Shown here: positions 3,304 to 40,881 of the stretch, piece by piece
Position numbering within the stretch: the first letter of the stretch is position 1
How the letters are laid out: every line of letters begins with the position of its first letter
Origin: Erysipelotrichaceae bacterium
GTDB lineage: Bacteria > Bacillota_I > Bacilli_A > Erysipelotrichales > Coprobacillaceae
DNA length: 42,706 nt
Assembly (NCBI GenBank): GCA_017633115.1
Contig: JAGBPZ010000031.1
Span: 1-42,706 of the forward strand
Reading direction: 5' to 3'
The notes under the pieces: model-generated
Told to the model about the DNA's origin: nothing
Databases searched by the model: none
The model's input: only the letters and a program-made list of their open reading frames with translations
Program-made: the position numbers and the translations under genes

Positions 3304-3304
3304 C

Positions 3305-4264: not shown

Positions 4265-4273
4265 GTCATCACC

Positions 4274-5302: not shown

Positions 5303-5501
5303 ACTCTCACACCTTCCTTAAAAACTAGTTTATCAAATGAAACTTTTATCGACAACAGAAAACCTTCAACTAATAGAGTTACATAATATTAATTTATACT
5401 CATTCTAAATAGACTTTAACTTATTAAATCAATACAACTACATGATCACTTTTGAAACAGAATTAAGACTGTATTTCCAATATCTCCAAAAGTCATCATA
5501 C

Positions 5502-12513: not shown

Positions 12514-15500
12514 GTCAAATCACAAGAGGATTTATTGAACAATTAAATGAAAACAACCGTCGTTCTCCTAATGAAGCCACACTTTTCGATGATATTTATG
12601 TACATGGTCTCACAAATGCAACCCTTGATGATATGTCTGGTAAAGTCTACCGATATCTCAAAGAACAAGACATCGGCAGAGATGACTTTATACTCTTAAA
12701 TATGCCACGTGGGGCAACCTGTATCATCGCTATGATTGGTGTTTGGAAAGCTGGTGCTGCTTTCGCCTTGGTTGAAGAAACTTATGCTCCTGAACGTATC
12801 AACTATATTCGTAAGGACTGTGGCTGTATTGCTGAAATCAACAAAGACAACTGGACCGAAATCATGAGCATGGATACACTCTCAGGTTATGAAGATGTTG
12901 ATGATCATGACCTTGCTTATGCCATCTATACATCTGGAACAACTGGTAATCCAAAAGGTGTTCTCCATGAATTCGGCAATCTAAAACGTATGATTGAGTC
13001 AATCAACTATCAGGGCATGCCATTTATCAAGCCTAAAGATCGTGGTGCATTATTAGCACCCCTCAACTTCGTCGCCAGCATGATGGTCATTGTTTATGTA
13101 CTTTACATGGGTGGCTGTCGTCTTTACGTCGCTTCTTATGAAACAATCAAAAATCCTGCAAAATTAGCAAAATTCTTCTTGAGCAAGCGTATCTCAATCA
13201 CATTCCTGACGCCTTCATATGTCAGAATGTTGAATGGTAAGACCGGACCATTCTTAAAAACACTGATCGTTGGTAGTGAACCTGCCAATGACCTTTATAT
13301 CAAAGGTGTTAATATTTATAATCTTTATGCGATGAGTGAAAGCGGCTTTATTGTCAGTTCTTTCAAGATTGACCGCACTTATGATGTTTGTCCAATCGGT
13401 CAGCCTCAATTTGATTTAGATATCAAGCTCCTCGATGAAGATGGTAAAGAATGTCCTCCAGGAGAAACTGGTGAATTATGCTTCGTCAATCCATATGTCC
13501 GTGGTTATATCAATCTTGAAGAAGAAACGAAGAAAGCTTTCTATGACGGTTACTATCATACCGGCGACCTGGCAACATGCAACAGCAATGGCGATTATAT
13601 CCTGCTTGGAAGAAGCAATGATATGATCAAAATCAACGGTAACCGTATTGAACCTGCAGAAATTGAAGCTGCAGTTAAAAAAGTACTCAACATCGAATGG
13701 TGTGCCGCTAAAGGCTTTAACGAAAAGAATCAATCATTTATCTGTGCCTACTACACTGATGATATTGATATCGATCTTAACTATGTCAGAGATGAACTGT
13801 TAAAACGTCTGCCTTACTATATGCTGCCAGCCCACTTCGTTAAAATTGACGAAGTGCCATTAAAAGCAAACGGTAAATTTGACCGTAAAGCCTTAAAGGC
13901 ACCAGAAATCAAAGATATGTCTGCAGGCTATGTTGCTCCTGAAAATGAAACAGAAGAAGCATTATGCAAGGCATTTGAAAAAGTATGTAAACTTGAACGT
14001 GTTGGTGTCCTTGATGACTTCTATGAATTAGGTGGCGATTCCCTAAGTTCAATTCAGGTCATCGTTGAAAGCGGACTTCCTGGACTTAATGCATCTCATA
14101 TTTTCCGTGGTCGTAATATTAGAAATATTGCAAAAATCTATCAGGAAACATTACGATCTAATGGTGGTGAGTCACCAGAAATTCGTAACGCAGAATCTAT
14201 GAAACGTGAGCATCCACTGACAGTTGAACAATTGTACATGATCAACTATCAGCTCTACACCCCACGTTCAACAATGTATAACCTTAATTCAATGCTCAAG
14301 TTCAGTCTTGAACAGTTTGATATGAGAATGCTTGCCAAAGCACTTTATGCAGCTATACGTAACCACCCTGCACTGTTAACAACTTATCACTTCAATGAAG
14401 ACGGCAACATTATGCAGAGTTATCACCCGGAAATATTAAAGGAAATCAACGTTGAACATATGCTTGACAAAGAGTTCTATTTCTTAAAAGATACTCTTGT
14501 TCAGCCATTCAAGATGTTTAATTCACCACTCTTTAGAGTCAGGGTCTTCCAGACTGAAAAGAATGGTTATGCTTTCTTCGATGTGCATCACACAGTCTTT
14601 GATGGATCTTCATTTAAAGTATTCCTCAATGATGTTGTCAATGCCTATATGGGTCAGCCAATGTCCAATGACTACTATTATTTGATGCTTGAAGAACGTG
14701 AACATGACGAACAAACAGAATTCTATCAGGAAAGTAAAGAATACTTTGAAGACATCTATAGTGATGATGACTTTATGTGTGCACCTCGCATAGACTATAA
14801 TTCACGCAATAATAATCTTGGAGAATTCATCAACTCTCTTGGCATCAATCAAATAGATATTTCTGATTTTGAAAAGAGATTACGTATCTCTCGTAACGAG
14901 TTCTTCTTGATTGTGGCCTGCATGGCGACAGCAATCTATAACAAAAACAACAATATCAAGTTGTCATGGATTTACAATGGCCGTGAGGATGCTAACTCCT
15001 TCAACACCGTTGGCTTGTTGTTTAGAAATCTGCCAATTGCCTTCAGATTTAAAGATGATATGACCTTGCGTGAAATCTGTGCTTCAGCCCATGAACAGGT
15101 ACAGGAAGGTATCAAACATAGTATCTATCCATATGTTGAAAAAAACCCTTCACAAATCGTCTCTCGTAATGAATTAGGCTGCCTGCTCTATCAACAGGAT
15201 ATCCGTGACTTAGGTGGCATGGAAGATTACGATATCGAAACAATCAGTATCAAGCAGAATAAACAGGCATCACAATCCATCATTGATATGGAAGTTCTCG
15301 ATGGCAGTGATGGTCTACAAATCTTTATTGATTACGCTGCAAGCCGTTATAAAAAGCAGAGCATGGAAGCTTTCAACCGTATCTTCATCGCTACTGGTCA
15401 TATCTTGCTGTTGAACACCCAAAATAGTGAGATTACCTATAGTAAATTGAAAAAAGATATATTGGCAGATATTGGAGTCTTTGATAAAATATTAAGTGTA

Positions 15501-15515
15501 TTCAAAATCAAATAA
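12510..15515 (+). CDS. Mini nonribosomal peptide synthetase, adenylation-thiolation-condensation
   Basis: 1001 residues in three domains. Adenylation (about 1-465): AIYTSGTTGNPKG (138-150), NLYAMSE (271-277), YHTGDLA (349-355), GRSNDMIKINGNRIEPAE, and the catalytic Lys456 in ANGKFDRK. Thiolation (about 475-550): LGGDSL with Ser511 for phosphopantetheine. Condensation (about 565-1001): HHTVFDG (693-699), the active-site HHxxxDG, then NTVGLLFRNLPI. There is no thioesterase or reductase; chain release must come from the terminal condensation domain with a free amine, another protein, or the coupled esterase. The substrate pocket reads FVAS (187-190), where alpha-amino-acid-specific domains have Asp in the second position. 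No phosphopantetheinyl transferase is nearby. Confidence 0.93.
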   Translation: MSQITRGFIEQLNENNRRSPNEATLFDDIYVHGLTNATLDDMSGKVYRYLKEQDIGRDDFILLNMPRGATCIIAMIGVWKAGAAFALVEETYAPERINYIRKDCGCIAEINKDNWTEIMSMDTLSGYEDVDDHDLAYAIYTSGTTGNPKGVLHEFGNLKRMIESINYQGMPFIKPKDRGALLAPLNFVASMMVIVYVLYMGGCRLYVASYETIKNPAKLAKFFLSKRISITFLTPSYVRMLNGKTGPFLKTLIVGSEPANDLYIKGVNIYNLYAMSESGFIVSSFKIDRTYDVCPIGQPQFDLDIKLLDEDGKECPPGETGELCFVNPYVRGYINLEEETKKAFYDGYYHTGDLATCNSNGDYILLGRSNDMIKINGNRIEPAEIEAAVKKVLNIEWCAAKGFNEKNQSFICAYYTDDIDIDLNYVRDELLKRLPYYMLPAHFVKIDEVPLKANGKFDRKALKAPEIKDMSAGYVAPENETEEALCKAFEKVCKLERVGVLDDFYELGGDSLSSIQVIVESGLPGLNASHIFRGRNIRNIAKIYQETLRSNGGESPEIRNAESMKREHPLTVEQLYMINYQLYTPRSTMYNLNSMLKFSLEQFDMRMLAKALYAAIRNHPALLTTYHFNEDGNIMQSYHPEILKEINVEHMLDKEFYFLKDTLVQPFKMFNSPLFRVRVFQTEKNGYAFFDVHHTVFDGSSFKVFLNDVVNAYMGQPMSNDYYYLMLEEREHDEQTEFYQESKEYFEDIYSDDDFMCAPRIDYNSRNNNLGEFINSLGINQIDISDFEKRLRISRNEFFLIVACMATAIYNKNNNIKLSWIYNGREDANSFNTVGLLFRNLPIAFRFKDDMTLREICASAHEQVQEGIKHSIYPYVEKNPSQIVSRNELGCLLYQQDIRDLGGMEDYDIETISIKQNKQASQSIIDMEVLDGSDGLQIFIDYAASRYKKQSMEAFNRIFIATGHILLLNTQNSEITYSKLKKDILADIGVFDKILSVFKIK

Positions 15516-15536
15516 TAAAGATAGGAGTAGTTAATA

Positions 15537-18637: not shown

Positions 18638-21600
18638 TTATTCAACACTCTTTAAGGCAACGATTGGATCAATATCATTAAGCGTTTGATTGGTCATGAT
18701 GTTGACAGCCAACGCAAAACCAGCTGCAATAGCTATCGAAATAAAGTAACTAAATGGTTTAATATAGACCGCAAAATAGAGCGATGGCATTTTTAATGCA
18801 GTCGTTAAAGAATGTGAGAATAGAATACCAAAAGGAACACCTAGTATGATTCCAATTGAAGTCAGGATCAAGGTTTCTTTATTGACATACAAATGAACTT
18901 CAGGATCAAAGAAACCCAATACTTTAATTGTCGCGAGCTCACGAACACGTTCAGAAATATTGGTTGCTGACAAGGTGAATAAAACCGCAAAAGCCAGTGC
19001 CGCTGACATCACTACCAATAAAACAACAACGACATGGATCAGCTTCACTGATTCACTAAAAGTATCACGCAATTCATCCGTTGAAACCGAAGATATTAAA
19101 TCATCGTATTGCTTGATTTCATCAATAGTCTTAGCAGCATCTTCGTGATCTTTGAATATAACCATCTGAGCATTTGTTTCAAAATCATCAAACAAAGATT
19201 CATAGAAAGATTGACTCATATAAAGGGCATTGCCAAGATAATTTTCAACAAGTGCTGTGACTTTCACATCACGACTTTCAAATTTTAAATTTTGAACAGT
19301 CACTGTATCCCCTTTTTTGAATCCAAGAATAATACCGGCATTCTTAGTTGTATATAAGCCTTCTTTTCCCAGCTTCAGAGTCTCATGGGAATCATGATCA
19401 TTGAGTGAGATGTAGTCGCTCAACGTCACGTCATCTGGGAAGACATACAACGTCATGACCTGCGTATCACCGTGATTTTTAAGTGTTACAGATTCGACTG
19501 TTAATGCTGTTCTTGCTTTGATTTCATCATGACCATCAAGCATTTTTCCAAAGTCATCGTTATCCTTTGACACAATACCTAAATAGTCATAATGATTAAT
19601 AACATCATACTGACGATAAATCAAATTATTGACGGAATCATTGATCGCAAAACCAACAACAAGTAATGATGTACAGCCAGCTATACCAATGATAGTCATG
19701 AATAATCGCTTCTTATATCTAAACAAATTACGGGCAGTGACTTTATTCAAGAATGATAAGTGATTCCATATTGGTGTAATACGTTCTAACAACACGCGGG
19801 AACCAGCTTTTGGCGATCTTGGACGCATCAAAGAAGCTGGCATCTCTTTCAGAGTTGCACGACACGTCCAGGCAACCGTTGCCACAACACTCAACAAGAA
19901 CAGAAGTGAACCACCTATTCCATAGAGTGGCAGATAATGCATCGTATAATATGGGAATTGATACATAGAGTGGAAAATGGTAAAGATGATGACTGGGAAG
20001 CCAATAAAGCCAGCCAGATTACCAAGTATACAGCCCACAAATGCCGCTATACCAGCATAAGCCATATATTTTAATCTGATTTCATGGTCATTAAAGCCTA
20101 ATGCCTGATAAGTACCAATTAGTCCTCGTTCTTCATCAACAAGACGGTTGACGGTGGTCATGCACATCAATAATGCCACAATGATAAACAGTATAGAAAA
20201 GATAACAGCTAAAGACTCAATCGAACCTGCATCACTGATGACATTTGTATAACCAGACATATAAGAACGGTTTTGTAAATACCATTGAGCTTTGTCCAAA
20301 GAAGCGATATCTTCTCTGGCATCAGCGACTTCTGCAATTGCATCTTTCTTTTCTTTTTTGTATTTTTTGGCATTCTTTTTGTACTTTTTTAAACCTTTTT
20401 GATAGTCTTTCAAACCATCATTGTATTCCTTGACACCTTTGTAATAATCTTTATATCCTTTATCGATTTGTTTCTTCGCTTTCTTCAACTTAGCCTTAGT
20501 CGTTTTCTTTTGACGTTTAAGGGTCTTTAATCCCTGAGTGATTTTTCTCTTATTGGATTTTAAAGATTTCGATTGTCGATTAAGTTCTTTTTCTCCAGCA
20601 TAAATCTGTTTCAAGCCTGCTTCGACTTGCTCCTTTTGTGCATAATAAGCAGCTTTTTCTTCTTCAGACATGTAGTCGACATAAGCACTTTGGGCATCAA
20701 TTTGAGCTTTAGCATTAAGTAATTGTTTCTTTTGGGCAGACAGCTGCTTTTTCGCCTTTTTCAATTGTTTTTCACCAGATTTAATCTGTTTTTTGGCTTT
20801 CGTTAATTTCTTCTGTGCTTTCTTGAATTCACGGTTAGCCTTTTTTTCGTTATCAGCTAATTTTTTCTTGTTTTGATCAAGTTCCTTTTTACCGTCATCA
20901 AGTTCTTTTTTGCCTTTGACAAGATCTTTCTTGGCTTTGTTCAGCTTCTTTTTAGCCTTATTGAGTTTCTTTTCGGCTTTTGCAAATTCCTTATACATAT
21001 CTGCTTCAGCGTCATCGAGTTTTTCCGTAGCAGTCTTTTTAACTTCCTTAGTGCGTGCTGATTCACGTTCTGATTTAATCGTTTGAGTAATTCGATTCAG
21101 AACATCATCACAGTGAACACTATAGTCATCCTGGTGGCGCAATGAATCATCATTATCTGTAATAGCCATACCGATTGCCGTATAGACATCACTATCGATG
21201 GCTTCAAAAGGCACATAAAACACGTAGTCAGTGGTTGCGGTCGATCTAAATGAGGTACCGCCATCATTCTGATTGATATCTGTAGGATCAACACAAATAC
21301 CAGAAATTGTATAAGTGGTATGTTTAAAGTTAGGCTCATCGTCTTCGAGTTCGAAATCGTCATCGTCTTCATCTTCTGAATGTTCTTCTTCAATGACAAC
21401 CTGATCACCTATACCTTGTCCACTATGTTTGATATATAAAGCCGATACAAGTATCTCCGTCGGCTTTTTTGGATAGTCGCCTTCGATGAGATAAGGGGTA
21501 TCAATTTGTCCGTCAACAAAACTTTTAACAGTGGCTGAATGGTTGTCCTGATCAATTTTCACATGAACATTTTCTTCATAAAATCCTGATACCTGAACGA

Positions 21601-21841
21601 CATCTTGCTGCTGACTCAAGATTTTAAGATCATCATCAGTTAGACCAAGAGTTGACTGCACAAGAATATCATGCAACTGCTGTTGAGCAAAAAAGTGATC
21701 TGCTGAACATCTCAAATCATAGCAACACGCTTGAAGTCCACTTAACATCGTGATTGACAATGCTGAGATGACGACGATAGCGAAAAATCGTTTCCACTCG
21801 TGTCGGATCGTCCTTAAAATGTCACTTCTATAACAACCCAT
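18638..21841 (-). CDS. Large FtsX/MacB-type ABC permease with Lys-rich coiled-coil insertion
   Basis: About 1067 residues. A membrane helix near residues 18-40 is followed by an extracytoplasmic MacB-like region (about 45-250). About 250 residues of Lys/Leu heptads follow (about 255-510, many KKxLxKAKK repeats), then an FtsX domain with several membrane helices (about 545-680), a second extracytoplasmic region and a second FtsX domain (about 930-1067, ending DIDPIVALKSVE). Such permeases with LolD-type ATPases act as mechanotransmission machines in antimicrobial-peptide resistance, lipid handling or wall-hydrolase control. The start at 21841 (GGTGATG upstream) leaves a 4-bp gap after the ATPase gene; an earlier in-frame ATG at 21865 overlaps it. 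Confidence 0.9.
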   Translation of the reverse strand: MGCYRSDILRTIRHEWKRFFAIVVISALSITMLSGLQACCYDLRCSADHFFAQQQLHDILVQSTLGLTDDDLKILSQQQDVVQVSGFYEENVHVKIDQDNHSATVKSFVDGQIDTPYLIEGDYPKKPTEILVSALYIKHSGQGIGDQVVIEEEHSEDEDDDDFELEDDEPNFKHTTYTISGICVDPTDINQNDGGTSFRSTATTDYVFYVPFEAIDSDVYTAIGMAITDNDDSLRHQDDYSVHCDDVLNRITQTIKSERESARTKEVKKTATEKLDDAEADMYKEFAKAEKKLNKAKKKLNKAKKDLVKGKKELDDGKKELDQNKKKLADNEKKANREFKKAQKKLTKAKKQIKSGEKQLKKAKKQLSAQKKQLLNAKAQIDAQSAYVDYMSEEEKAAYYAQKEQVEAGLKQIYAGEKELNRQSKSLKSNKRKITQGLKTLKRQKKTTKAKLKKAKKQIDKGYKDYYKGVKEYNDGLKDYQKGLKKYKKNAKKYKKEKKDAIAEVADAREDIASLDKAQWYLQNRSYMSGYTNVISDAGSIESLAVIFSILFIIVALLMCMTTVNRLVDEERGLIGTYQALGFNDHEIRLKYMAYAGIAAFVGCILGNLAGFIGFPVIIFTIFHSMYQFPYYTMHYLPLYGIGGSLLFLLSVVATVAWTCRATLKEMPASLMRPRSPKAGSRVLLERITPIWNHLSFLNKVTARNLFRYKKRLFMTIIGIAGCTSLLVVGFAINDSVNNLIYRQYDVINHYDYLGIVSKDNDDFGKMLDGHDEIKARTALTVESVTLKNHGDTQVMTLYVFPDDVTLSDYISLNDHDSHETLKLGKEGLYTTKNAGIILGFKKGDTVTVQNLKFESRDVKVTALVENYLGNALYMSQSFYESLFDDFETNAQMVIFKDHEDAAKTIDEIKQYDDLISSVSTDELRDTFSESVKLIHVVVVLLVVMSAALAFAVLFTLSATNISERVRELATIKVLGFFDPEVHLYVNKETLILTSIGIILGVPFGILFSHSLTTALKMPSLYFAVYIKPFSYFISIAIAAGFALAVNIMTNQTLNDIDPIVALKSVE

Positions 21842-21845
21842 AACA

Positions 21846-22547
21846 TCACCACTCAATCTCAGCAATAGGACGAGGTGATGGATTTAAGGTTTGTTCAATC
21901 ACCTGGCCATTTTTAAAACGAATCAGGCGATCAGCCATTGGTGCTAAAGCAGAGTTATGAGTGATTAAGACAACGGTTATCTCCTCTTTACGACAGATGT
22001 CCTGAAGCAATGATAAAATTTGTTTACCTGTTTCATAGTCAAGAGCACCTGTAGGTTCATCACACAATAACAATTTAGGATTTTTAGCGATAGCACGAGC
22101 AATAGAAACACGCTGTTGTTCCCCACCTGATAATTGAGATGGGAAATTGTTCTGACGTTCACTTAAGCCAACCTGAGTTAATATTTCACTGGCATCTTTA
22201 GCACCTTTTCTAATTTGTGCTGCCAACTCCACATTTTCAAAAGCAGTCAGATTAGGAATCAAATTATAAAACTGAAAAACAAAACCAATCGCATCACGGC
22301 GATAACCGATTAACTGTCGTTTATTAAAGGTCGTAATATCCACGCCATCAATCCATACATGTCCTGAAGTCGTATAGTCCATACCTCCAAGAATATTGAG
22401 AGCGGTCGTTTTACCTGCACCTGAAGAACCTAAAATAACTGCAAGCTCACCTTTCTCAATAGAAAAAGAAGCCTGATCAAGGGCGTTGATACTGGTTTCA
22501 CCAGTAATATATGTTTTTGTAACCTGGTCAAATTCTATATAACTCAT
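21846..22547 (-). CDS. ABC transporter ATP-binding protein, LolD/MacB type
   Basis: About 233 residues: Walker [11 protein letters not shown]-loop region [20 protein letters not shown], signature LSGGEQQR, Walker [13 protein letters not shown] and the switch His in [21 protein letters not shown] and DEPTGALD are typical of the MacB/LolD/FtsE group that pairs with FtsX-type permeases, here the next gene 4 bp downstream. An open frame continues upstream with a hydrophobic stretch, but that is the neighbouring gene read in another frame. ATG at 22547 has GGAG upstream and matches the usual start MSYIEF. Confidence 0.94.
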
Positions 22548-31063: not shown

Positions 31064-31242
31064 AACTTTTTCCCTCTAAATATATCGATAATTTCTAACT
31101 ACATTTATAGAATAACCGAAATATTTATTCTAAGCAATAGTTTCTTAAGATTTTCTTAGTTTTTCCTTTAAAAAGTGTTCATTTTTCTGTTTATCGCATC
31201 CTATTTTTAGGTTTATCCTATATATTTCTTATGTAATTAAAA

Positions 31243-31281
31243 AAAGCACCATTTTTTCAACGCTTTTTCGTATGGTGCTTT
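31243..31281 (-). terminator. Terminator of the wall-signalling operon
   Basis: Leftward, AAAGCACCAT and ATGGTGCTTT pair over 10 bp with a 19-base loop and are followed by seven U. The loop is long but the tail is good. The stretch 31064-31242 holds only the AT-rich leader of the NlpC/P60 gene. Confidence 0.75.
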
Positions 31282-31287
31282 TTGAGT

Positions 31288-32412
31288 TTAATCTGCTTTC
31301 TTTGTTTTTGTTTTTTTAGACTTTTCTGTAGCACTTTCTATTTCTTCAATCAGTTTATCTAGTTCGTCATTAACTTCCCTATAGTCTTTCTGCAACTGAC
31401 GATTTGTTTCCTTTTGAGCTTTAAGCTGAGCCTGAATTTGTGTGTAACGATAATACTGGAAGCCATTAGCTCCAATGGCCCCAAGCAATAAGACAACTGT
31501 TAAGAATCTGATAAAAGCCTTTAATTTTGGATGGCCTTTCTTACGTTTGTCCTTCTCTGTCTGAACATCAACTTTCGTATCTTCTTGAGTCAATGATGTC
31601 TCTTCAATAGCACGTGTGATTGGCTGTTGAATTGTATCAGTCTGATAAGTAAAGTTTCTAACTTTTGTGTGTGTCAGTTCTGGAACTGTATGGAGATGAA
31701 TAATGACGGCTGTAATATCATCAGTAATCATATGCTCACGCAAATGATTATTATCTACGATTGACTTAAGTTCCTGGTCATCTGCAGTAAACACTTCTTT
31801 CATTGAATTAGGATCATAGCCTTGATATGAAGGTTCTAGATAAGCGTTAGTAAATCCGTCCGTACCTAAGCAGATGGCACTGAAGTCATCTTTGTTGACA
31901 CGGATGACACGCATACGTTTAGACGTTTCGCGATGGGCAGCCTGATAAACCTGATCCTGAGCATTATTGTCTGGATATGACAGGATGACTGGTGCCACCA
32001 TAGCATCAGTATGTGGTAAACCAATAACGGCACCATCACCGGCATGGATGATGGTTAAGACATTACCTTCATAAAAACAAGCTAAGAAGGTCGATGAAAA
32101 ATCATTTTCTGTTGCGCTAGGTTCTTGCTTGATCAAACGAGCTATCAGCTGTCTGAATTTTTCTGCAAAGTCATCACGGATTTCTTCACAGGTCATTGAA
32201 TTATAATGAGTGATAACCCCATTCCTTATCAAATATTTCCCCATGCCTTGAACAAGTGCCTGGGCGCCAACTCCACCATACATTGAATGTGAAACGCCAT
32301 CAGCCACGCAACAGACAACCGGCTGATCATGGATGAAGAGGGCATCTTCACAATCCTTATGATCAATCGCATGAGCCGTACCGGTCAGGTTGATTGAATT
32401 AATTCTTGTCAT
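31288..32412 (-). CDS. PP2C-family protein phosphatase with C-terminal membrane anchor
   Basis: About 374 residues. PP2C motifs in order: DCEDALF, CCVADGVSHSMYGG (metal Asp), IHAGDGAVIGL, CLGTDGFTNAYL (Asp) and DDITAVIIHL. A linker with many charged residues leads to one membrane helix (FLTVVLLLGAIGANGFQYY, about residue 310) and a C-terminal coiled coil with a Lys-rich end, so the catalytic domain should be cytoplasmic. It is the last gene of the PBP-SEDS-vWA-kinase-PP2C operon and should reverse the phosphorylation made by the kinase one gene upstream (13-bp gap). The start was set at 32412 by AAGGAGGAGG; an upstream in-frame extension overlaps the kinase gene. Confidence 0.92.
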   Translation of the reverse strand: MTRINSINLTGTAHAIDHKDCEDALFIHDQPVVCCVADGVSHSMYGGVGAQALVQGMGKYLIRNGVITHYNSMTCEEIRDDFAEKFRQLIARLIKQEPSATENDFSSTFLACFYEGNVLTIIHAGDGAVIGLPHTDAMVAPVILSYPDNNAQDQVYQAAHRETSKRMRVIRVNKDDFSAICLGTDGFTNAYLEPSYQGYDPNSMKEVFTADDQELKSIVDNNHLREHMITDDITAVIIHLHTVPELTHTKVRNFTYQTDTIQQPITRAIEETSLTQEDTKVDVQTEKDKRKKGHPKLKAFIRFLTVVLLLGAIGANGFQYYRYTQIQAQLKAQKETNRQLQKDYREVNDELDKLIEEIESATEKSKKTKTKKAD

Positions 32413-32425
32413 ATGACCCTCCTCC

Positions 32426-34126
32426 TTACATGAAAATAAATAATATGAGTAATACGATGATGGCAACAATACAGCCAATACCATACATCAATGGTTTCTT
32501 ATATTCACCAGTTTTAATGAATCGTTCCCAACGTTCTTCGTCAGTTTCACCTTCAATTGAAGTTGCTGCCGTTGCTAAGAAGATCTCAAGGATTTTTTTC
32601 TGCCATTCTGGAAGAACGACTTCTTCTTCATCTTTGTGATAGTCGAATATTTCTTTCGTCTTCTTCTTTTCTGTTTTTTCAACTTTATGTTCAACCTGAT
32701 CTGTTTTCTTGGTATCATTAGTTTTCTTTAAGCTGAATGGCAGCTTCAATTTTGGAAATTCAATTTCCTTGTTTGACTGATGGCTGGTAACAACTTCTTC
32801 TTTGACATCTTCTTCGTCTTCATCTGCGTTGAACGCAAATACATGGTTGAAATAGTCTTCATTACGTTTCTTGATATCAAGATTAATTGCTGCCAGTTGC
32901 TGAGCACAGCTTGCTGGGATTGCTTCTTCATAAGCTGCAACGACAAGACGTGCCAGGTGTGGAGCTTTTTCACGAAGATAGTTTTTACCATCTTCATCAA
33001 GAATGACATGACCACGATCATCATAGAGTCCCAATAAATCTGCAGGATTCATATAGGCTGAGATCATGATTGTCAACATTGTATAGGACAAATCAATTGA
33101 GTGATAGAACAATAAATCATTATCGAATTCAATTGGTACACCATTTTGTTTATCAGCTGACTTAGTCGTTGCTGGATAATTCAAATACTGCGTTGAATCG
33201 ATATCGATGACATGAGCCAGACAATTTTCAAAGTTACAAAGAATATTGTGAGCAAGGTCTTTATGATAAATACCATAAAGCTGCATTGCGATAACTTGTT
33301 TCATGATTTCTCTTGCCACTGTTTCAGCGTTGATTTGTTGGTGGAAGGATTTGAGATTAATAGTTTCCCCTTCAAAGTTACGCATGACAATACCAATTGG
33401 CTGATCTTTTTCATCATAAACAACAGCCAGTGGAATGGCAGTTAAAGGTAAGTCATCAACGATTTCGGTAAACTTTTTCAATTTTGTGACTTCAAATTGA
33501 TACAGTGGACGGTCATAAATCTTCACACGCCATTTTGGATTATCCTTGACAACAAATGTAATACCTTCCTGTCCAGATTGAATGTTGCGCTGTTCACCAA
33601 TATGCTGGAAATAGACCTGATCACCAATCATAAAATGACACAAGCCACGATAACCGATTGGGTTATTAATTGGTTCACGCTGCAAGCCCTTGGTTCCGAA
33701 TGACTTTGAAGTCAAATAGTTAACTGCATAAGGTTGAACATTCTGGAACTTTGGTGATTGCGCTGAACGGTTATAACCAATGCAAGCAAAGACATTACCT
33801 TTATAACGTGTCATTGCGACTGAAGAGATAATTGGATTAATCGCATTTGTAGGCGTCAGATATAAATCTTCTTCACTATCTCTGTTAGCATATAAATATT
33901 CATCAAGATCAAAAGCATCAACTGTCATCGTATCGATATTGGCAGCATCGAAAGCAGCAAGCAAATGCTGGTAACGATTTGTCGCATGAATGCATTCAGC
34001 GATTTCCTGCATACCAGTAAAGATCATGATGACATCACCGCTCGCACCAAAATCAGGAAGAGACTTTTCTAAAGTCTCATACTGAGGTGATAGCAGGCTT
34101 TGACCTAATAAAAGAATTTTCTTCAT
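32426..34126 (-). CDS. YegI-like protein kinase with C-terminal membrane anchor
   Basis: About 566 residues. The first about 185 residues match no family that I know. A kinase-like domain follows: WRVKIYDRP (Lys of the KIY strand), the hinge region IGIVMRNF, the catalytic loop YHKDLAHNILCN (HxD, Asn) and VIDIDSTQY in place of DFG, very like the D-[IT]-DS pattern of YegI/TerY-P triad kinases. A charged linker rich in Glu and Lys leads to one helix at the very C-terminus (GIGCIVAIIVLLILFIFM), so the kinase is anchored with its catalytic part in the cytoplasm. The ATG at 34126 is preferred over 34135 because AAGGG sits about 9 bp upstream; it leaves a 1-bp gap after the vWA stop. Eukaryotic-type kinase residues are complete, so activity is plausible. 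Confidence 0.8.
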   Translation of the reverse strand: MKKILLLGQSLLSPQYETLEKSLPDFGASGDVIMIFTGMQEIAECIHATNRYQHLLAAFDAANIDTMTVDAFDLDEYLYANRDSEEDLYLTPTNAINPIISSVAMTRYKGNVFACIGYNRSAQSPKFQNVQPYAVNYLTSKSFGTKGLQREPINNPIGYRGLCHFMIGDQVYFQHIGEQRNIQSGQEGITFVVKDNPKWRVKIYDRPLYQFEVTKLKKFTEIVDDLPLTAIPLAVVYDEKDQPIGIVMRNFEGETINLKSFHQQINAETVAREIMKQVIAMQLYGIYHKDLAHNILCNFENCLAHVIDIDSTQYLNYPATTKSADKQNGVPIEFDNDLLFYHSIDLSYTMLTIMISAYMNPADLLGLYDDRGHVILDEDGKNYLREKAPHLARLVVAAYEEAIPASCAQQLAAINLDIKKRNEDYFNHVFAFNADEDEEDVKEEVVTSHQSNKEIEFPKLKLPFSLKKTNDTKKTDQVEHKVEKTEKKKTKEIFDYHKDEEEVVLPEWQKKILEIFLATAATSIEGETDEERWERFIKTGEYKKPLMYGIGCIVAIIVLLILFIFM

Positions 34127-34127
34127 C

Positions 34128-34916
34128 TTATGCATCCCTTCCCGTCAGGTTGTTGAAGTAGAATAAGACATTAGTTGCCAGGATATGGCTTAAATATTCA
34201 CCATAGGCAACACGGTTGTTCTTAGGTGGTCGGCTGACCTGGTCAAAAGGACCATTAGTCGCATCGACATCTGTAGATGAAGCCAGCTGTAAAGCTTTCA
34301 TACAATTGATAATTGTCTTTTCACTGTCTTCCTGGTCCATTAAAATTTTGTAGCCACCAAAGTCTACGCCATCTTCATTATCGCTTGTAACGCATTCAAC
34401 AATGATTTTACGGTTATAAGCCATATCTTCAGATAAAGTCTTAAGGATACCAGTATATCGTTCAGTGTTTTCTGTGCATTTTGCATCTGTCACAATGAAG
34501 AAGAATGGAATTGTACAAATCTGCTTACTGACTTCACAAGCCTTCATGACTTCACCAAGGTAAGTATCGGCTTTTCTAAAAGCTGAAACAAGTGGTGAAT
34601 GACCTCGGCACATTAAAGGTAGAGTACCAATAAAAGCTTCAGCATCAAAATCACGAAGTTCACCAAAATAGAGAACGCGGCTGCGATCACGATAAATGCC
34701 AATAATAATTAATGTGAAGTAACGTTTACCAACTGCTTTCAGATGGTTGACCGTCTGTCTGACAATCGATTTGATTTGATCCTTATAAAGTTCCATTGAA
34801 CCAGATAAATCAAGAATAATGCAAAGAGGTGTACGAGGATTAGTCATGACCCCTACTTTCATATTTTCGAGACGATAAATCTGTTCACTGATTTCAACAC
34901 TTGATAATTCATTCAT
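34128..34916 (-). CDS. von Willebrand factor A (TerY-like) protein
   Basis: 262 residues, soluble. The MIDAS motif is DLSGSM (about residues 35-40), a Ser in GHSPLVSAF and an Asp in FIVTDAK, so a divalent metal site is complete. The vWA fold ends near residue 220; a tail of about 40 residues follows. TerY-like vWA proteins form a conserved trio with a PP2C phosphatase and a YegI-like kinase, thought to be a phosphorylation switch; both partners are the next genes here. It overlaps the SEDS gene by 8 bp and the kinase gene follows after 1 bp, so its translation is coupled to both. Confidence 0.85.
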   Translation of the reverse strand: MNELSSVEISEQIYRLENMKVGVMTNPRTPLCIILDLSGSMELYKDQIKSIVRQTVNHLKAVGKRYFTLIIIGIYRDRSRVLYFGELRDFDAEAFIGTLPLMCRGHSPLVSAFRKADTYLGEVMKACEVSKQICTIPFFFIVTDAKCTENTERYTGILKTLSEDMAYNRKIIVECVTSDNEDGVDFGGYKILMDQEDSEKTIINCMKALQLASSTDVDATNGPFDQVSRPPKNNRVAYGEYLSHILATNVLFYFNNLTGRDA

Positions 34917-36561
34917 TCGTCATCCCTGCCTTTCTCTCATTGATTAGTTTATAGTAAGATGATGAGACACCGCTGGCACATATAATGCCAAACATGCCTC
35001 CATAACATATTGCTGCCGATATACCTTTGGAAATACCTGGTAAAACAACGCCTGTCAATGGGATGATAGAGAATGTACCACCCATATTGAGGATAATCGC
35101 AAAGATAATACCCGCAATCGATAAAGCTGTCATAACTTGCTGGAATCGATTTTGCTGCTGAAGAGAATTAAATGTCGTATAGATCAGCAACATAACCATA
35201 AGCAGCATAATAAATAAGAAGATTGCTCCGTGTCGTTGCGCTAATAAGCCCATGACAAGGTCACTGTTGGCAGCCATGACACCTTTTAAAGTATCAAAGC
35301 TTGAATTACCTAAAAGTCCGCCATTAGAAAATGCGGCGACAAGAGCATGGACCGACTGGTAACCATAACCATTATGCGTCGCCAGCGAACCACTTCCTGT
35401 TAAAATTTGGAAAATAGTATTGCCTTCACCCATCCAGTTTGTGAAACGGTAAGCAGCTGTAGAAGAAAGCTTTAAGATTGCTTTGGCTCCTACCATTGTT
35501 GAAAGGATGATGATCGCAATTAATAGTAAATCGGTATTCTGCAGCCAGACGGAAATAATAAACAAACAACCTAACTGCATCAAAAGACCACTGTCTTTAA
35601 TCAGTACTGCATAAGCAAATACGATTGATGTCATACCGAATGTATAAATAAGATTTGTACGGTCGTTGAATAATTGTCTTTGTGGGACAACCAATGCCAA
35701 CAGATAAACCAGTTTGACAATTTCTGAAGGCTGGAATGTCATGCCACCAATTGTAATCCAGTTATAAGCACCATATTTCACTTTTGCCAAAACAATGTTC
35801 AAGACAATTAAACCAATAATACCTGCCAAAGCCATGATTCTTAAATATTGATGTAAAGATTTTTTCCCAATTGCTTTATTGACGTCCAATTTCATGAAAT
35901 TTGAGAAAATCAAAGCCATGCCAACATAGACGCCTACCCCAATTAAGCTGTCTCGTAAACAACCAGCCAGCGCTTCACTGTTTGTCAAAGCAGGATAAAG
36001 AGTTGCTTCAATATAGTAAGTCAAAAAGATGGCGAAAATTGATTCAATAATAGGTGCGTGATCACTGCGCAGAATCATCGATAATAAAACATACGCGATC
36101 AAAATGCCATGAATAATGAACATTGATGTTAATGGAAATTCCTGATACATACAATAAGCTTTAAAACCAATAAAGCCTATCGTAAAGAATACCGGCATCA
36201 TTCCTGACAAACGGAATTGATTATTGACTGGCAATGAGAAATGGAATCGCTGCCCACCAATAATATAATCATTATTTTCATAGCGGCCACCCTTAGAAAG
36301 AGTTTCAACTTCCATCGTGTGACCTTTTTGATCAAATGTCAGAGCAGCTGCTTTTCTTGGTACATCAGGTTTATTGATATGAATATCATTGATGCGTAAT
36401 CGACCAATCATCGTTGTCAAACCCTGACTGCCATCAAGAACTACTTTTTCTTCTTTACGGACGACAAAGCCATAAACATCACGATGTCTTTGGCTCACCA
36501 CCTGAAAAGCAGAAATAAGAAATAGGAGCAATAGGACATCCTGTATTAAATTAAAGAGCAT
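34909..36561 (-). CDS. SEDS-family (RodA/FtsW) protein with N-terminal FHA-like domain
   Basis: 550 residues. An N-terminal membrane helix (about 1-22) is followed by a FHA-like beta domain (about 40-125: IGRLRINDIHINKPDVPRKAAALTF, then NNDYIIGGQRFHFSL). About ten membrane helices then follow in the RodA/FtsW pattern, with YNWITIGGMTFQPSEIVKLVYLLALV, NGYGYQSVHALVAAFSNGGLLG, SDLVMGLLAQRHG and GVVLPGISKGISAAICYGGM. SEDS proteins polymerise glycan strands with a partner transpeptidase, here the gene just upstream (2-bp gap). The FHA core Gly-Arg is kept, but the Ser and His that read phosphothreonine are Pro and Ala. TAGGAGG precedes the start. Fusion of FHA and SEDS in one chain is unusual. Confidence 0.88.
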   Translation of the reverse strand: MLFNLIQDVLLLLFLISAFQVVSQRHRDVYGFVVRKEEKVVLDGSQGLTTMIGRLRINDIHINKPDVPRKAAALTFDQKGHTMEVETLSKGGRYENNDYIIGGQRFHFSLPVNNQFRLSGMMPVFFTIGFIGFKAYCMYQEFPLTSMFIIHGILIAYVLLSMILRSDHAPIIESIFAIFLTYYIEATLYPALTNSEALAGCLRDSLIGVGVYVGMALIFSNFMKLDVNKAIGKKSLHQYLRIMALAGIIGLIVLNIVLAKVKYGAYNWITIGGMTFQPSEIVKLVYLLALVVPQRQLFNDRTNLIYTFGMTSIVFAYAVLIKDSGLLMQLGCLFIISVWLQNTDLLLIAIIILSTMVGAKAILKLSSTAAYRFTNWMGEGNTIFQILTGSGSLATHNGYGYQSVHALVAAFSNGGLLGNSSFDTLKGVMAANSDLVMGLLAQRHGAIFLFIMLLMVMLLIYTTFNSLQQQNRFQQVMTALSIAGIIFAIILNMGGTFSIIPLTGVVLPGISKGISAAICYGGMFGIICASGVSSSYYKLINERKAGMTNE

Positions 36562-36563
36562 CG

Positions 36564-37823
36564 TTAGCCTCCTAAAATAGTATTATTGACAAATCTGGCA
36601 GTCATTTTAATCGCATTTGTTGATGAACCGCCATCTTCAAGCATTAATACAACAACATAAGTTGGTGCCTTTGTATCAGTTAATGAACAAACAAACCAGG
36701 CATGATCAGTACCACGTCCTGTTTCAGCAGTACCCGTCTTACCAAAACATGAACAATTAAACCTGGTGCTGTACCAATTTGTCATCCCCTTAGTTAAAGC
36801 ATTTTTAAGGAATAGAGATGTTCTGAATTCCATGATACGTTTAGCACTAGTCTTCGCGTTTGATTTTTGATAGTAGAATGTCTGACGACGACCATTATTG
36901 GCGATTGCACCATAGTAACTCGCAATCGTCACTGGTGTCACTAAGTCTTTTGACTGGCCATCACTTGACCATCTGATTGAATCATTGGCATCGACCTCAC
37001 CAGCCTTAACCGGATAATCAACCATCAAATCAGTTGATTTGACCCCTGCCTTTTTCGCAAAGCTGTTCAATTCTTCAGGTGTCAGATGTTCAGAAACAAA
37101 TTTCGCAATGCCACAGTTACAGCTTTTATAAAGAGCTTCTTCTAATGTGACAGTTCCGTGAGCTGATGAACAAGAAACTTCTTCATATTTACCAGTACAA
37201 TTAAATGTCAATGATTGATAGCTCTGACTCTTCTCAAGTAATGCCCCTACCGCAATAGCTTTAAATACAGAACCCGGTGTATAAGCCTGAGCTGCTTTAT
37301 TAAGGTAAGCTTTATCAGCTGCTTTTTTCTTTGATTTAACATCAACACTTGGTGTTGAAACCATTGTTTTTACTTCACCAGTATTATAATCAGCCACGAA
37401 TAGCGTTCCGTTAACACCTGATGATTTCAATAATTTATAAGCAGCTTTTTGCATATCAAGATCAATCGTTAAATTGATCGTATGTTGTTCAGAATGATAA
37501 CCATCTAATAATGATATATTAGCATCATTCGATAAATAGGTTGATAAAAGTGACGAAGGCAAACTGCCGTTTAAATCACCAACAACATGGAAAGTGGACT
37601 CGCGAGTCAATTCATCCTTGCTAAAACCACCATCATAGATGATTGCTCCTTTGGCATCCTTGATTACTAAATTATTGATGCGGTCATTTTTGATATAGTC
37701 ATAAAAATGTTCAGAGATTTTCTTCTTGTTGATGACCGGTGTTAATCCTATTAAAAGGGACATGACAATGGTAAGAATTAACATCGCCGTCAACTGTAAT
37801 TTCATTTTAGTTATAATTTTCAT
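36564..37823 (-). CDS. Penicillin-binding transpeptidase (PbpA/class B type)
   Basis: About 419 residues. One N-terminal membrane helix (about 10-30) anchors the protein. The transpeptidase domain has the active Ser185 in PGSVFK (SxxK), Ser234 in KSCN (SxN) and KTG at 362-364 in FGKTGTAETG. A short pre-domain between the anchor and residue 120 replaces the long N-terminal module of FtsI/PBP2, as in the actinobacterial PbpA and Firmicute PbpA-like short proteins. It crosslinks peptidoglycan and is expected to pair with the SEDS protein 2 bp downstream. The start at 37823 has AAGGAGGTG upstream; a clear promoter lies at 37849-37877. First gene of the operon. Confidence 0.93.
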   Translation of the reverse strand: MKIITKMKLQLTAMLILTIVMSLLIGLTPVINKKKISEHFYDYIKNDRINNLVIKDAKGAIIYDGGFSKDELTRESTFHVVGDLNGSLPSSLLSTYLSNDANISLLDGYHSEQHTINLTIDLDMQKAAYKLLKSSGVNGTLFVADYNTGEVKTMVSTPSVDVKSKKKAADKAYLNKAAQAYTPGSVFKAIAVGALLEKSQSYQSLTFNCTGKYEEVSCSSAHGTVTLEEALYKSCNCGIAKFVSEHLTPEELNSFAKKAGVKSTDLMVDYPVKAGEVDANDSIRWSSDGQSKDLVTPVTIASYYGAIANNGRRQTFYYQKSNAKTSAKRIMEFRTSLFLKNALTKGMTNWYSTRFNCSCFGKTGTAETGRGTDHAWFVCSLTDTKAPTYVVVLMLEDGGSSTNAIKMTARFVNNTILGG

Positions 37824-37848
37824 AGGACAACACCTCCTTTTCAAATTA

Positions 37849-37877
37849 TTTATACACTGAAATTTTATGAACGTCAA
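37849..37877 (-). promoter_or_regulatory. Promoter of the PBP-SEDS-vWA-kinase-PP2C operon
   Basis: Leftward, -35 TTGACG (37877-37872), 17-bp spacer ending in TG, -10 TATAAA (37854-37849). It lies about 26 bp before the PBP start codon. It matches a vegetative sigma-A promoter well. Confidence 0.82.
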
Positions 37878-38011: not shown

Positions 38012-38051
38012 AGGACAAAAAATAAACAAGTGGAGTGTGACCACTCCACTT
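38012..38051 (-). terminator. Terminator after the SPFH/zinc-ribbon module
   Basis: Leftward, AAGTGGAGT and ACTCCACTT form a perfect 9-bp stem with a 6-base loop, followed by a U-rich tail (GTTTATTTTTT). Confidence 0.82.
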
Positions 38052-38064
38052 CATTTAAACGGTA

Positions 38065-38418
38065 TTAGAACCTTGGACCATGAGGCATCCCTGGACCACC
38101 AAAACCAGGACCACCACCATGTCGCCCATTTTGGCGATTAATCGGTGTACGAATATGATCGGTACGCAAATAGACATCATCTTTCTGATAAAGATGGGTA
38201 GCATCACTTTTTAAATAATCCATGGCGCTGTTAGCTTTATGAACATTGTTGAGTTTTGATTTCTTATCAAAAGCAATGATAAATGCCATCAAAAATCCCA
38301 ACCCCAAAGAGATCAAGACATAAGTACCAATAGAATTGATGAATTCAGATATATTAAACTCAATAAAACTGAACAACACAGACATTATTGTGTTGGGTAA
38401 TAAAACTGTAAAATCCAT
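38065..38418 (-). CDS. Small membrane protein resembling the C-terminal part of YdjH-type TPM proteins
   Basis: 117 residues. A hydrophobic N-terminal half with a helix (about 30-50, TYVLISLGLGFLMAFIIAF) leads into KSKLNNVHKANSAMDYLKSDATHLYQKDDVYLRTDHIRTPI and a Gly/Pro/His-rich tail ending HGPRF. The A-x-x-Y...D-x-x-L-x-T-x-I-R-T-P pattern followed by a Gly-rich tail resembles the region after the TPM domain in YdjH/YgcG-type proteins. The TPM domain itself is absent here. It is 3 bp downstream of the zinc-ribbon gene and shares its operon, so a role in the same membrane complex is likely. Resemblance is by motif only. Confidence 0.6.
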   Translation of the reverse strand: MDFTVLLPNTIMSVLFSFIEFNISEFINSIGTYVLISLGLGFLMAFIIAFDKKSKLNNVHKANSAMDYLKSDATHLYQKDDVYLRTDHIRTPINRQNGRHGGGPGFGGPGMPHGPRF

Positions 38419-38421
38419 GTC

Positions 38422-39483
38422 CTATCCTCCCATAAACGTCATAAAGATCATCATTAAGCCAAAGATAAATAAAGCAAATAAAGGACCATGTATCAAAACA
38501 TAACGATTGAATGCCTTTTGATCAAATGGAAAACTACCTACAAGTTTACCGGTTTCACCATTCATCGCAAAAGTATAAATGTCATTATTCCATTTAACGT
38601 TAAGTATCCATACTGGATAAAGAGCATAATGACCTTTGGTATCGAGAATGTTGATTTGGTATCCCGTACTTGAATAACTTGAATAACCAGTGACAGTTGC
38701 ATCAAGTGCTGCTTTAGTTGTCGAATTGATACGATCCTGAATACGCATGCGACATTCTTCTTCAGACACGTCATAACGTGATGCATAGTAACCAGCCATA
38801 TAACCACGTTCAAATTGTTTGACTTTAAAGAAACTGATTGGTTCTAATGAATCCATCAGTTGATCATTCATTTTTCGCGATGCATCAGCAGGTATTTTGT
38901 TAAATTCAAACTTTCCGTGTCGGTTAACCACAAAGTGTCTTGTTTCCTGTACATTAAAGTCACCTGAAATATAGGAACGTGTCATGACCGCATTATATTT
39001 TGCAGCACCTTCTGTTGTCACATCAAATACCCAGAATGGTACATATAAACCTGTGATTTCGTCAAATCGTGCATCTGCTTTAAAAATATCAGGAATAAAA
39101 TCCAGATGTTCCATATGTTCGCGATAAGCATCTTTTGCCTGTCTACGATCAAACTGAAATGGCACAATAAATTCTGGCTCAAATTTTCCTTCAAACTGCG
39201 AAGGGACAATAACCTTATTGCCACAATAAGGACAAATTGTTGCACCGGTGTTGATATCCGTTAAAATCTCACCAGCACATGATTGACATACATAAGCTTT
39301 AACTAATGGATCAGCCTCTTCAGTTTGTGAGTGACTTATAGCAGAATGAGACATTTGATTAGGATCAAATGTCTCAACATCATATTCTGAGTCACAATAA
39401 GGACATTTCAGTTTTTGTGAATGACTATCAAAGGCTAATGCACCGCCACAGGCTGGGCATTTATACTCAATGATTTTCGTCAT
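38422..39483 (-). CDS. TFIIB-type zinc-ribbon membrane protein (YdjG-like)
   Basis: 353 residues. Two zinc ribbons open the protein: YKCPACGG with KLKCPYCDSEYD (about 7-40) and YVCQSCAGEI with ATICPYCGNKVI (about 65-95). A beta-rich domain (about 110-320, with VPFWVFDVTTEGAAKY and HYALYPVWILNVKWNND) and one C-terminal membrane helix (LFALFIFGLMMIFMTFMGG) follow. YdjG/YdjH/YdjI of Bacillus form a membrane-stress module with PspA-like partners; this is the YdjG member by domain order. It is 6 bp downstream of the SPFH gene. The zinc ribbons probably mediate protein contacts rather than DNA binding. Confidence 0.82.
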   Translation of the reverse strand: MTKIIEYKCPACGGALAFDSHSQKLKCPYCDSEYDVETFDPNQMSHSAISHSQTEEADPLVKAYVCQSCAGEILTDINTGATICPYCGNKVIVPSQFEGKFEPEFIVPFQFDRRQAKDAYREHMEHLDFIPDIFKADARFDEITGLYVPFWVFDVTTEGAAKYNAVMTRSYISGDFNVQETRHFVVNRHGKFEFNKIPADASRKMNDQLMDSLEPISFFKVKQFERGYMAGYYASRYDVSEEECRMRIQDRINSTTKAALDATVTGYSSYSSTGYQINILDTKGHYALYPVWILNVKWNNDIYTFAMNGETGKLVGSFPFDQKAFNRYVLIHGPLFALFIFGLMMIFMTFMGG

Positions 39484-39489
39484 TATTGA

Positions 39490-40758
39490 TTATCCTTCTA
39501 AAGGTTGACCACATTCAGGACAGAATTTTCCGCCACCTACTTCAGCACCACAATTTGGACAAATTTTCTTAACTGGTTTTGGTTTACCACATTCAGTGCA
39601 GAATTTACCTGTATTTTCTGTACCACAGACACAAATCCATTTATCAACAACTGGTTTTGGTTTGCCACATTCAGTACAGAATTTACCATCGTTCTGAGCA
39701 CCACAACTGCATACCCAGATTTTCTTGTCATCAACTTTTGCCTGATTATGTTTTGCTGCCTGTTCGAATAGAGCAGCTGCATTTGTACCATCCTGATTCA
39801 TAGCCATACCCATGCCCATGAAACCAGTCATAGCACCTGCAGAATTGTTTGCTGCATCTCTCATTGCATCAGCTTTAGCACCTACTAAAGTAGCTGCTGC
39901 CATGCTTGGATCTCTGTTGATAGCTGAGAATTGTGCATCTTTAAGTTTCTGAGCATCTTCATCAGGAATAGTGACACTGTTAATTGCGATAGAAACAATT
40001 GTCAATCCTCTTAAATCTGCCCATTTCTTTGCTAATTCAACGTTCATAGCTTCTTTTAATTCAGCAACATGACTTGGCAATGCGCTTGGTCTGATATTCA
40101 ATTCAGAGATTTTGCCAAAAGCAGGCTGTAAAGCATCAATGAATTCAGTTTTTAACTGATTGTCGATTTTTTCTCTTCTGTATTCACCTTCGACATTACC
40201 ACAGACATTCTTATAGAATAATAGTGGATCACTGAGCTTGTATGAATAGATACCATTACATCTGACAGCAGTATCAAAGTCAAGATTGATATTGCGGTCT
40301 ACAATTTTAAATGGAATTGGTGTTGCTGTACCAAATTTATTATCGACGATTTCCTTAATATTGAAATAATAAACGCGTTGATCTTTACCTGTATCTCCAC
40401 CATAAGTGAAACGTTTACCAATTGTCTTGAATGTTTCTAAGAGTCCTTTACCTAAGCTGCCTGTAAATAAGCTAGGTTCACTTGATGCATCCCATGTAAA
40501 CTGACCAGGTTCAGCACAGAATTCAACGATTTTACCCTGTTCAACAATAATCATGCACTGACCATCAGCAACGACGATACCAGAGCCATTACTAATGATA
40601 TTATCGTTACCTCTAGTATTTGATGAACGAGATGTTATACGTTTCTGTCCTTTTTTTACTAATACGTTTGCTTCTAATGCATCACAATAGAAATATTCTT
40701 TCCACTGATCTGCAAATGTGCTGTTAGCTGCACCTATGATTGCTGTAATTAATCCCAT
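39490..40758 (-). CDS. SPFH-domain protein with three C-terminal zinc ribbons (YdjI-like)
   Basis: About 422 residues. MGLITAIIGAANSTFADQWKEYFYC is the typical YdjI opening. The SPFH/Band 7 domain covers about 30-290, with VRCNGIYSYKLSDPLLFYKN and LTIVSIAINSVTIPDED. An Ala-rich stretch follows. The end holds three zinc-binding units: CSCGAQNDGKFCTECG, CVCGTENTGKFCTECG and CPNCGAEVGGGKFCPECG. SPFH proteins form membrane scaffolds; in Bacillus YdjI recruits a PspA-type protein under membrane stress. AAAGGAG precedes the ATG at 40758. It is first in a three-gene operon with the YdjG-like and small membrane proteins, and divergent from the regulator at 40965. Confidence 0.88.
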   Translation of the reverse strand: MGLITAIIGAANSTFADQWKEYFYCDALEANVLVKKGQKRITSRSSNTRGNDNIISNGSGIVVADGQCMIIVEQGKIVEFCAEPGQFTWDASSEPSLFTGSLGKGLLETFKTIGKRFTYGGDTGKDQRVYYFNIKEIVDNKFGTATPIPFKIVDRNINLDFDTAVRCNGIYSYKLSDPLLFYKNVCGNVEGEYRREKIDNQLKTEFIDALQPAFGKISELNIRPSALPSHVAELKEAMNVELAKKWADLRGLTIVSIAINSVTIPDEDAQKLKDAQFSAINRDPSMAAATLVGAKADAMRDAANNSAGAMTGFMGMGMAMNQDGTNAAALFEQAAKHNQAKVDDKKIWVCSCGAQNDGKFCTECGKPKPVVDKWICVCGTENTGKFCTECGKPKPVKKICPNCGAEVGGGKFCPECGQPLEG

Positions 40759-40881
40759 AATAAGAAACTCCTTTCTATTTATTACTATTTTACCTTGTTT
40801 CATAGACTATCTCAAGAGAATAAGACTTCTGCCGATATTTCCCTTGTGTTTAAAAATATCATTTTTATTTAACCTATTTTC

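Follow-up and report, generated by a model that had tools for sequence, protein, structure and literature searches.

In Actinobacteria, SEDS glycosyltransferases and penicillin-binding proteins (PBPs) are encoded beside a PP2C phosphatase, Ser/Thr kinases and FHA proteins (pstP-rodA-pbpA-pknA-pknB, with fhaA/fhaB), and pstP is cotranscribed with rodA and pbpA (PMC6554272). Triads of a vWA protein, a Ser/Thr kinase and a PP2C phosphatase, referred to as TerY-P, have known associations with restriction and tellurite resistance, and related, TerY-P-like modules function in antiphage defense (PMC11090510). The E. coli genes yegL, pphC and yegI encode a vWA protein, a PP2C phosphatase and a kinase of this type, with no wall genes beside them and with the kinase gene outside the run of the other two. 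To our knowledge, the direct targets of TerY-P triads are largely unknown. In the Firmicute Bacillus subtilis, genes for a PP2C, a vWA protein and a kinase are neighbors in spoIIE-yabS-yabT. The PP2C, SpoIIE, is membrane-bound and interacts with RodZ, a wall protein (PMC4945075).

Here we describe a locus in which a SEDS-PBP pair and a TerY-P-like triad stand together. Each half is known, the former with FHA, PP2C and kinases from Actinobacteria (PMC6554272) and the latter as TerY-P triads (PMC11090510). We found no paper on both halves together, in a search whose coverage of TerY-P was incomplete, and priority is hence not certain. The locus lies in the window, i.e., the whole stretch of 42,706 nucleotides that was analyzed (contig JAGBPZ010000031.1 of Erysipelotrichaceae bacterium, a rare bacterium of the gut, assembly GCA_017633115.1). 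Its predicted features are, in order of transcription:

38028..38051 (-), terminator of the upstream ydjI/ydjG/ydjH-like operon, lying before the five-gene promoter and separating both operons
37849..37877 (-), promoter TTGACG-N17-TATAAA, 5' of the operon, 2 mismatches to consensus
36564..37823 (-), short class B PBP (transpeptidase), 419 aa; Pfam PF00905, E 1.2e-30
34909..36561 (-), SEDS glycosyltransferase, 550 aa, with N-terminal helix and degenerate FHA; Pfam PF01098, E 8.4e-30
34128..34916 (-), vWA protein, TerY/YegL-like, 262 aa; MIDAS DxSxS...S/T...D and hhalign to YegL
32426..34126 (-), YegI-like protein kinase, 566 aa; hhalign to YegI, catalytic columns, structure model and weak fold matches
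31288..32412 (-), PP2C phosphatase, 374 aa; Pfam PF13672, E 1.6e-20, and hhalign to PphC, E 5.3e-6
31239..31283 (-), intrinsic terminator just after the PP2C gene; hairpin fold -14.9 kcal/mol, z = -4.15

The five genes are intact open reading frames that follow one another on the minus strand (31288-37823), with intergenic distances of 2, -8, 1 and 13 bp from PBP to PP2C, exactly as a first-pass annotation of this DNA had claimed. That annotation placed the right end at 37877, which is an upstream in-frame TTG; the ATG at 37823, preceded by a GGAGG Shine-Dalgarno sequence, is the better PBP start. Promoter-quality matches occur across the whole window at about chance level (16 seen vs. 13.6 expected), and the operon promoter is therefore credible because of its position rather than its match statistics. 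Judged by this anatomy, the five genes appear to form a single transcription unit. Upstream of it (38065-40803) lie genes for an SPFH/Band 7 protein, a zinc-ribbon protein and a small membrane protein that resemble Bacillus ydjI-ydjG-ydjH; 6/43 genomes of the family have ydjG kin. A functional tie between these genes and the operon was considered but not supported, given the intervening terminator and the presence of ydjG kin in relatives in which no triad turned up.

The identities that had been proposed for all five proteins were upheld, by Pfam for the PBP, the SEDS protein and the PP2C, and by motifs and profile comparison for the vWA protein and the kinase. The PBP and SEDS matches are above the Pfam cut-offs, and the PP2C is above that of PP2C_2. 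The PBP has a transpeptidase domain with SVFK, SCN and KTG in the window copy (SxxK, SxN and KTG are kept in all three known copies) and no glycosyltransferase domain, as in class B. At 419 aa, the usual large N-terminal module would not fit, and hydropathy indicates one N-terminal helix in each of the three copies. The SEDS protein has an FTSW_RODA_SPOVE domain whose D434 aligns with the HTDF of E. coli RodA as the catalytic Asp, kept in 6/6 sequences. The host genome additionally encodes two canonical SEDS proteins, two other class B PBPs, two large class A-type PBPs and, elsewhere in the genome (contig C85), a 601-aa PASTA protein of kinase size. Since the host already has its own SEDS proteins, PBPs and PASTA protein, the operon would represent an added synthase with an added switch.

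The N-terminal part of the SEDS protein (about residues 30-110) is FHA-like, the single such site found in the window's genome. Its assignment as an FHA fusion is supported by hhalign, which aligned it with the FHA of a true FHA-SEDS fusion on the faecal contig L021 (52% over 33 residues), but the Pfam FHA match is below cut-off (E 0.055; sub-threshold in two of the three copies) and the predicted structure of the region has a pLDDT of 38. The conserved GR is kept; of the phosphothreonine-binding residues (GR, S-x-x-H, N), S-x-x-H is replaced by P-R-K-A, A-R-K-Q and S-R-M-Q in the triad-linked copies. The domain is thus degenerate and probably does not bind phosphothreonine. As S-x-x-H is lost in 3/3 copies, the simplest model, in which the FHA reads phosphorylation by the operon's kinase, fails and was set aside as the leading one.

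The operon holds a vWA, a Ser/Thr kinase and a PP2C gene, the gene content of a TerY-P triad. The vWA protein and the kinase have no match above a curated cut-off and were identified by motifs and by profile comparison with YegL and YegI, in an hhalign set of about 25 proteins, mostly unrelated controls. The vWA protein matched E. coli YegL best (E 1.2e-5 vs. 0.08 for the next match, the best control); it keeps the MIDAS-type residues DxSxS and D, with S or T between, and lacks a membrane helix by hydropathy, in all three copies. The PP2C matched E. coli PphC best (E 5.3e-6; next 0.047; PstP 0.07), and its metal-binding Asp residues are kept in 3/3 copies. For the kinase, its own degenerate paralogue aside, the best match was YegI (E 0.0032), followed by another kinase (0.033) and the best non-kinase (0.055), consistent with the earlier claim that it is of a type other than PknB. 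By profile comparison, then, the triad appears nearest to YegL, YegI and PphC, not to PstP and PknB: the window kinase and PP2C scored hardly better than controls against PknB and PstP, and do not qualify as a PASTA kinase and a PstP.

Of the three putative identities in the triad, that of the kinase is the weakest supported. The protein appears to comprise an N-terminal Rossmann-like domain, a kinase domain, a disordered linker and a C-terminal membrane helix, and it carries the residues expected for catalytic competence, i.e., Lys, Glu, HxD...N and metal Asp (K202, E212, HKD 288-290, N294 and D308/D310). These columns are kept in 3/3 copies, with the H of HKD replaced by P in one. The kinase fold on which the first-pass annotation depended was weakly borne out: the AlphaFold model predicts the Rossmann-like domain confidently, with its elements ordered much as in kinases, and kinases are among the best Foldseek matches, but the overall pLDDT is 55 and none of these kinase matches is below E 0.04 (about 0.05 or worse). 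The C-terminus consists of a charged linker and the membrane helix, with no Cys cluster. The zinc ribbon or OB-fold of classic TerY-P kinases is absent there, and we therefore call the triad TerY-P-like rather than classic TerY-P.

Hydropathy indicates the C-terminal helix of the kinase and a single PP2C helix (297-315) in all three copies, with a second borderline stretch in one kinase copy. The charge pattern at these helices is of the cytoplasmic type in 3/3 copies, albeit weak for the kinase of one, and from these charges we infer the side of the membrane that each part faces, which would place the short coiled-coil-like tail that follows the PP2C helix outside. In having these helices, and in the extra N-terminal domain of the kinase, the window proteins differ from the E. 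coli members. The likeness to the B. subtilis operon is one of gene type; that operon has no SEDS-PBP pair, and SpoIIE has ten N-terminal membrane helices.

In SEDS trees, which have long branches and some support values below 95, the three triad-linked proteins form a group with two from Clostridia (100/99 and 95/97), close to RodA of Actinobacteria, and a grouping with the host's own SEDS proteins is rejected (p-AU 0.027). The PBP tree agrees (80/100; p-AU 0.0009). These trees place the PBP-SEDS pair among the FHA-SEDS-PBP clusters seen in Clostridia and Actinobacteria and apart from the host's FtsW/RodA. The proposed joining of a RodA/PbpA-type pair to a TerY-P-type triad is thus backed by trees and profile comparison alike. 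Such wall clusters had been regarded as actinobacterial, which is correct but not exclusively so, since FHA-SEDS-PBP sets without the triad are present in Monoglobus pectinilyticus and on two faecal contigs (L021 and L022). These Clostridial clusters contain the nearest SEDS and PBP kin, and L021 encodes a helix-FHA-SEDS fusion followed by a short PBP. By contrast, their neighboring genes, as far as read, include no vWA protein, kinase or PP2C, and the L021 FHA keeps its motif (SRSH). No other FHA-SEDS fusion was found among the matches in 296 class genomes, and the best plasmid matches of the Clostridial PBP were mostly actinobacterial, together with general PBPs. In Actinomyces oris we read the classic run FHA-FHA-PP2C-SEDS-PBP-kinase-PASTA kinase, and the Tsukamurella cluster was read in part. 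The actinobacterial cluster has kindred SEDS and PBP genes beside PP2C, Ser/Thr kinase and FHA genes, but it lacks a vWA gene, its FHA proteins are separate and annotated as such, and its kinase and phosphatase are of the PASTA-type PknB and PstP types.

Two further loci, both in Clostridiales bacterium CHKCI006, have this set of five genes in unchanged order, with about 30-53% protein identity. Whether the genes travel together, a question raised by the first reading, is answered in the affirmative by the presence of all five in constant order at 3/3 known loci. The set is very rare, yet complete wherever triad markers were found. In a search of relatives, the vWA protein was found in two genomes, that of the window and CHKCI006, and beyond the window's own genome it is absent from samples of 296 class and 392 phylum genomes. 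The kinase is present in 2/43 family, 2/295 order and 1/392 phylum-sample genomes, the window's genome being counted each time. There is overlap among these samples, which do not extend to Clostridia as defined by GTDB; a contig scan with two short peptide patterns reached close relatives only. No triad relatives were found in plasmids, phages or IMG/VR. With only two carrier genomes, the evidence for conserved linkage comes from three loci, and a single genome supplies two of these. The second CHKCI006 copy (L008) lies in a conjugative-element region with a MobL relaxase, two VirD4/TraG proteins and two integrases, and near E1/JAB and ClpP genes. No mobile genes adjoin the window copy, whose G+C content (0.36-0.39) matches that of the DNA around it; a recent foreign origin of the window operon was considered, but base composition gave no sign of it.

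Overall, we lean, somewhat above even confidence, toward the operon encoding a peptidoglycan synthase that is accessory to the host's machinery and can be switched by a TerY-P-type system of its own. The SEDS protein would polymerize glycan strands and the short PBP would crosslink them, bringing the number of SEDS proteins to three and adding one class B PBP to those of the host. Both enzymes of the triad, the PP2C and the YegI-like kinase, would be held in the membrane that carries the synthase, their catalytic domains facing the cytoplasm, and the soluble vWA protein may serve as a metal-dependent adaptor that brings them to their target. The triad may phosphorylate the SEDS protein, the PBP or the vWA protein; in particular, the kinase and the PP2C may determine whether the vWA protein, the cytoplasmic portion of the SEDS protein, or both are phosphorylated, with the FHA remnant as a platform. 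The phosphorylation state would turn the synthase on or off, and the outside PP2C tail would be the likeliest wall sensor. This scheme presumes the orientation of the anchors, a physical interaction, the substrates, the direction of the switch and the signal. A shared operon alone is no proof that the triad acts on the synthase. We favor a switch because the five-gene linkage is kept over long divergence, including in a mobile-region copy; because all five genes lie between a single promoter and a single terminator; and because catalytic residues and the kinase and PP2C membrane helices are kept in three copies. The scores of the triad against YegL, YegI and PphC, above all controls, the nearness of the pair to Clostridial FHA-SEDS-PBP and the actinobacterial precedent of pstP cotranscribed with rodA and pbpA argue in the same direction.

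The mobile setting of the second CHKCI006 copy suggests another reading, that the operon is mobile-element cargo, a spare SEDS-PBP pair for tolerance of wall stress (beta-lactams, bacteriocins or wall changes during conjugation) that the triad activates only when the host enzymes fail. This is compatible with a switch, though we consider it rather unlikely. Its patchy distribution (2/43 family genomes), the SEDS proteins and class B PBPs that the host already has, and the presence of the mobile PBP2M of Corynebacterium diphtheriae plasmids among the plasmid matches of the PBP fit such cargo, whereas the window copy, with a G+C content like that of its surroundings and no adjoining mobile genes, does not. 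It is less probable still, and in our view improbable, that the triad serves general stress or defense signaling as a TerY-P-type module with targets elsewhere and merely has its promoter in common with the wall pair. TerY-P triads are tied to tellurite resistance and DNA/RNA restriction, TerY-P-like modules are stand-alone antiphage systems (PMC11090510), and PADLOC PP2C-type models weakly match the phosphatase; however, this triad subfamily was found solely with the wall pair (3/3 loci), the operon has no nuclease, helicase, zinc-ribbon or Ter gene, and the kinase and PP2C appear membrane-anchored. That the five genes are chance neighbors without a functional link is very hard to credit: the set is in two genomes only, but its order is identical in three diverged loci, with overlaps or very short gaps and a common promoter and terminator.

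A broader view, which we hold with slightly less than even confidence, is that a TerY-P-type triad became a dedicated membrane-bound regulator of a SEDS-PBP pair, a third phospho-control beside PASTA kinases and SpoIIE, spread at least partly by mobile elements. In every locus found, the triad is tied to one enzyme machine with assayable output, and the wall pair offers a concrete target for asking what such triads act on. It might represent a new kind of phospho-control over SEDS-PBP synthases.

Several other genes in these regions are worth noting. On L008, a degenerate second YegI-like kinase (4079-5365) has lost HKD...N but kept K and E, and is likely a pseudokinase; a transglutaminase-like gene (3091-4095) follows it. 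Beside the second operon copy (L008, 12518-17705) are genes for a JAB-ThiF (E1-like) fusion and a 197-aa protein in the E2 position, near-identical tandem 112-aa ORFs (14838-15176 and 15194-15532), TraG/VirD4 and ClpP, possibly a bacterial ubiquitin-like system on the mobile region. The mobile region of CHKCI006 also contains an ORF of 2830 aa (L054, 2791-11283), part of which is ATPase-like. In the window itself, a carboxylesterase-like gene is followed by a single NRPS module (adenylation, carrier and condensation; 10825-15515), unusual for so small a genome, and an FtsX-type permease (18638-21865) has a very long lysine-rich insert that is probably coiled-coil.
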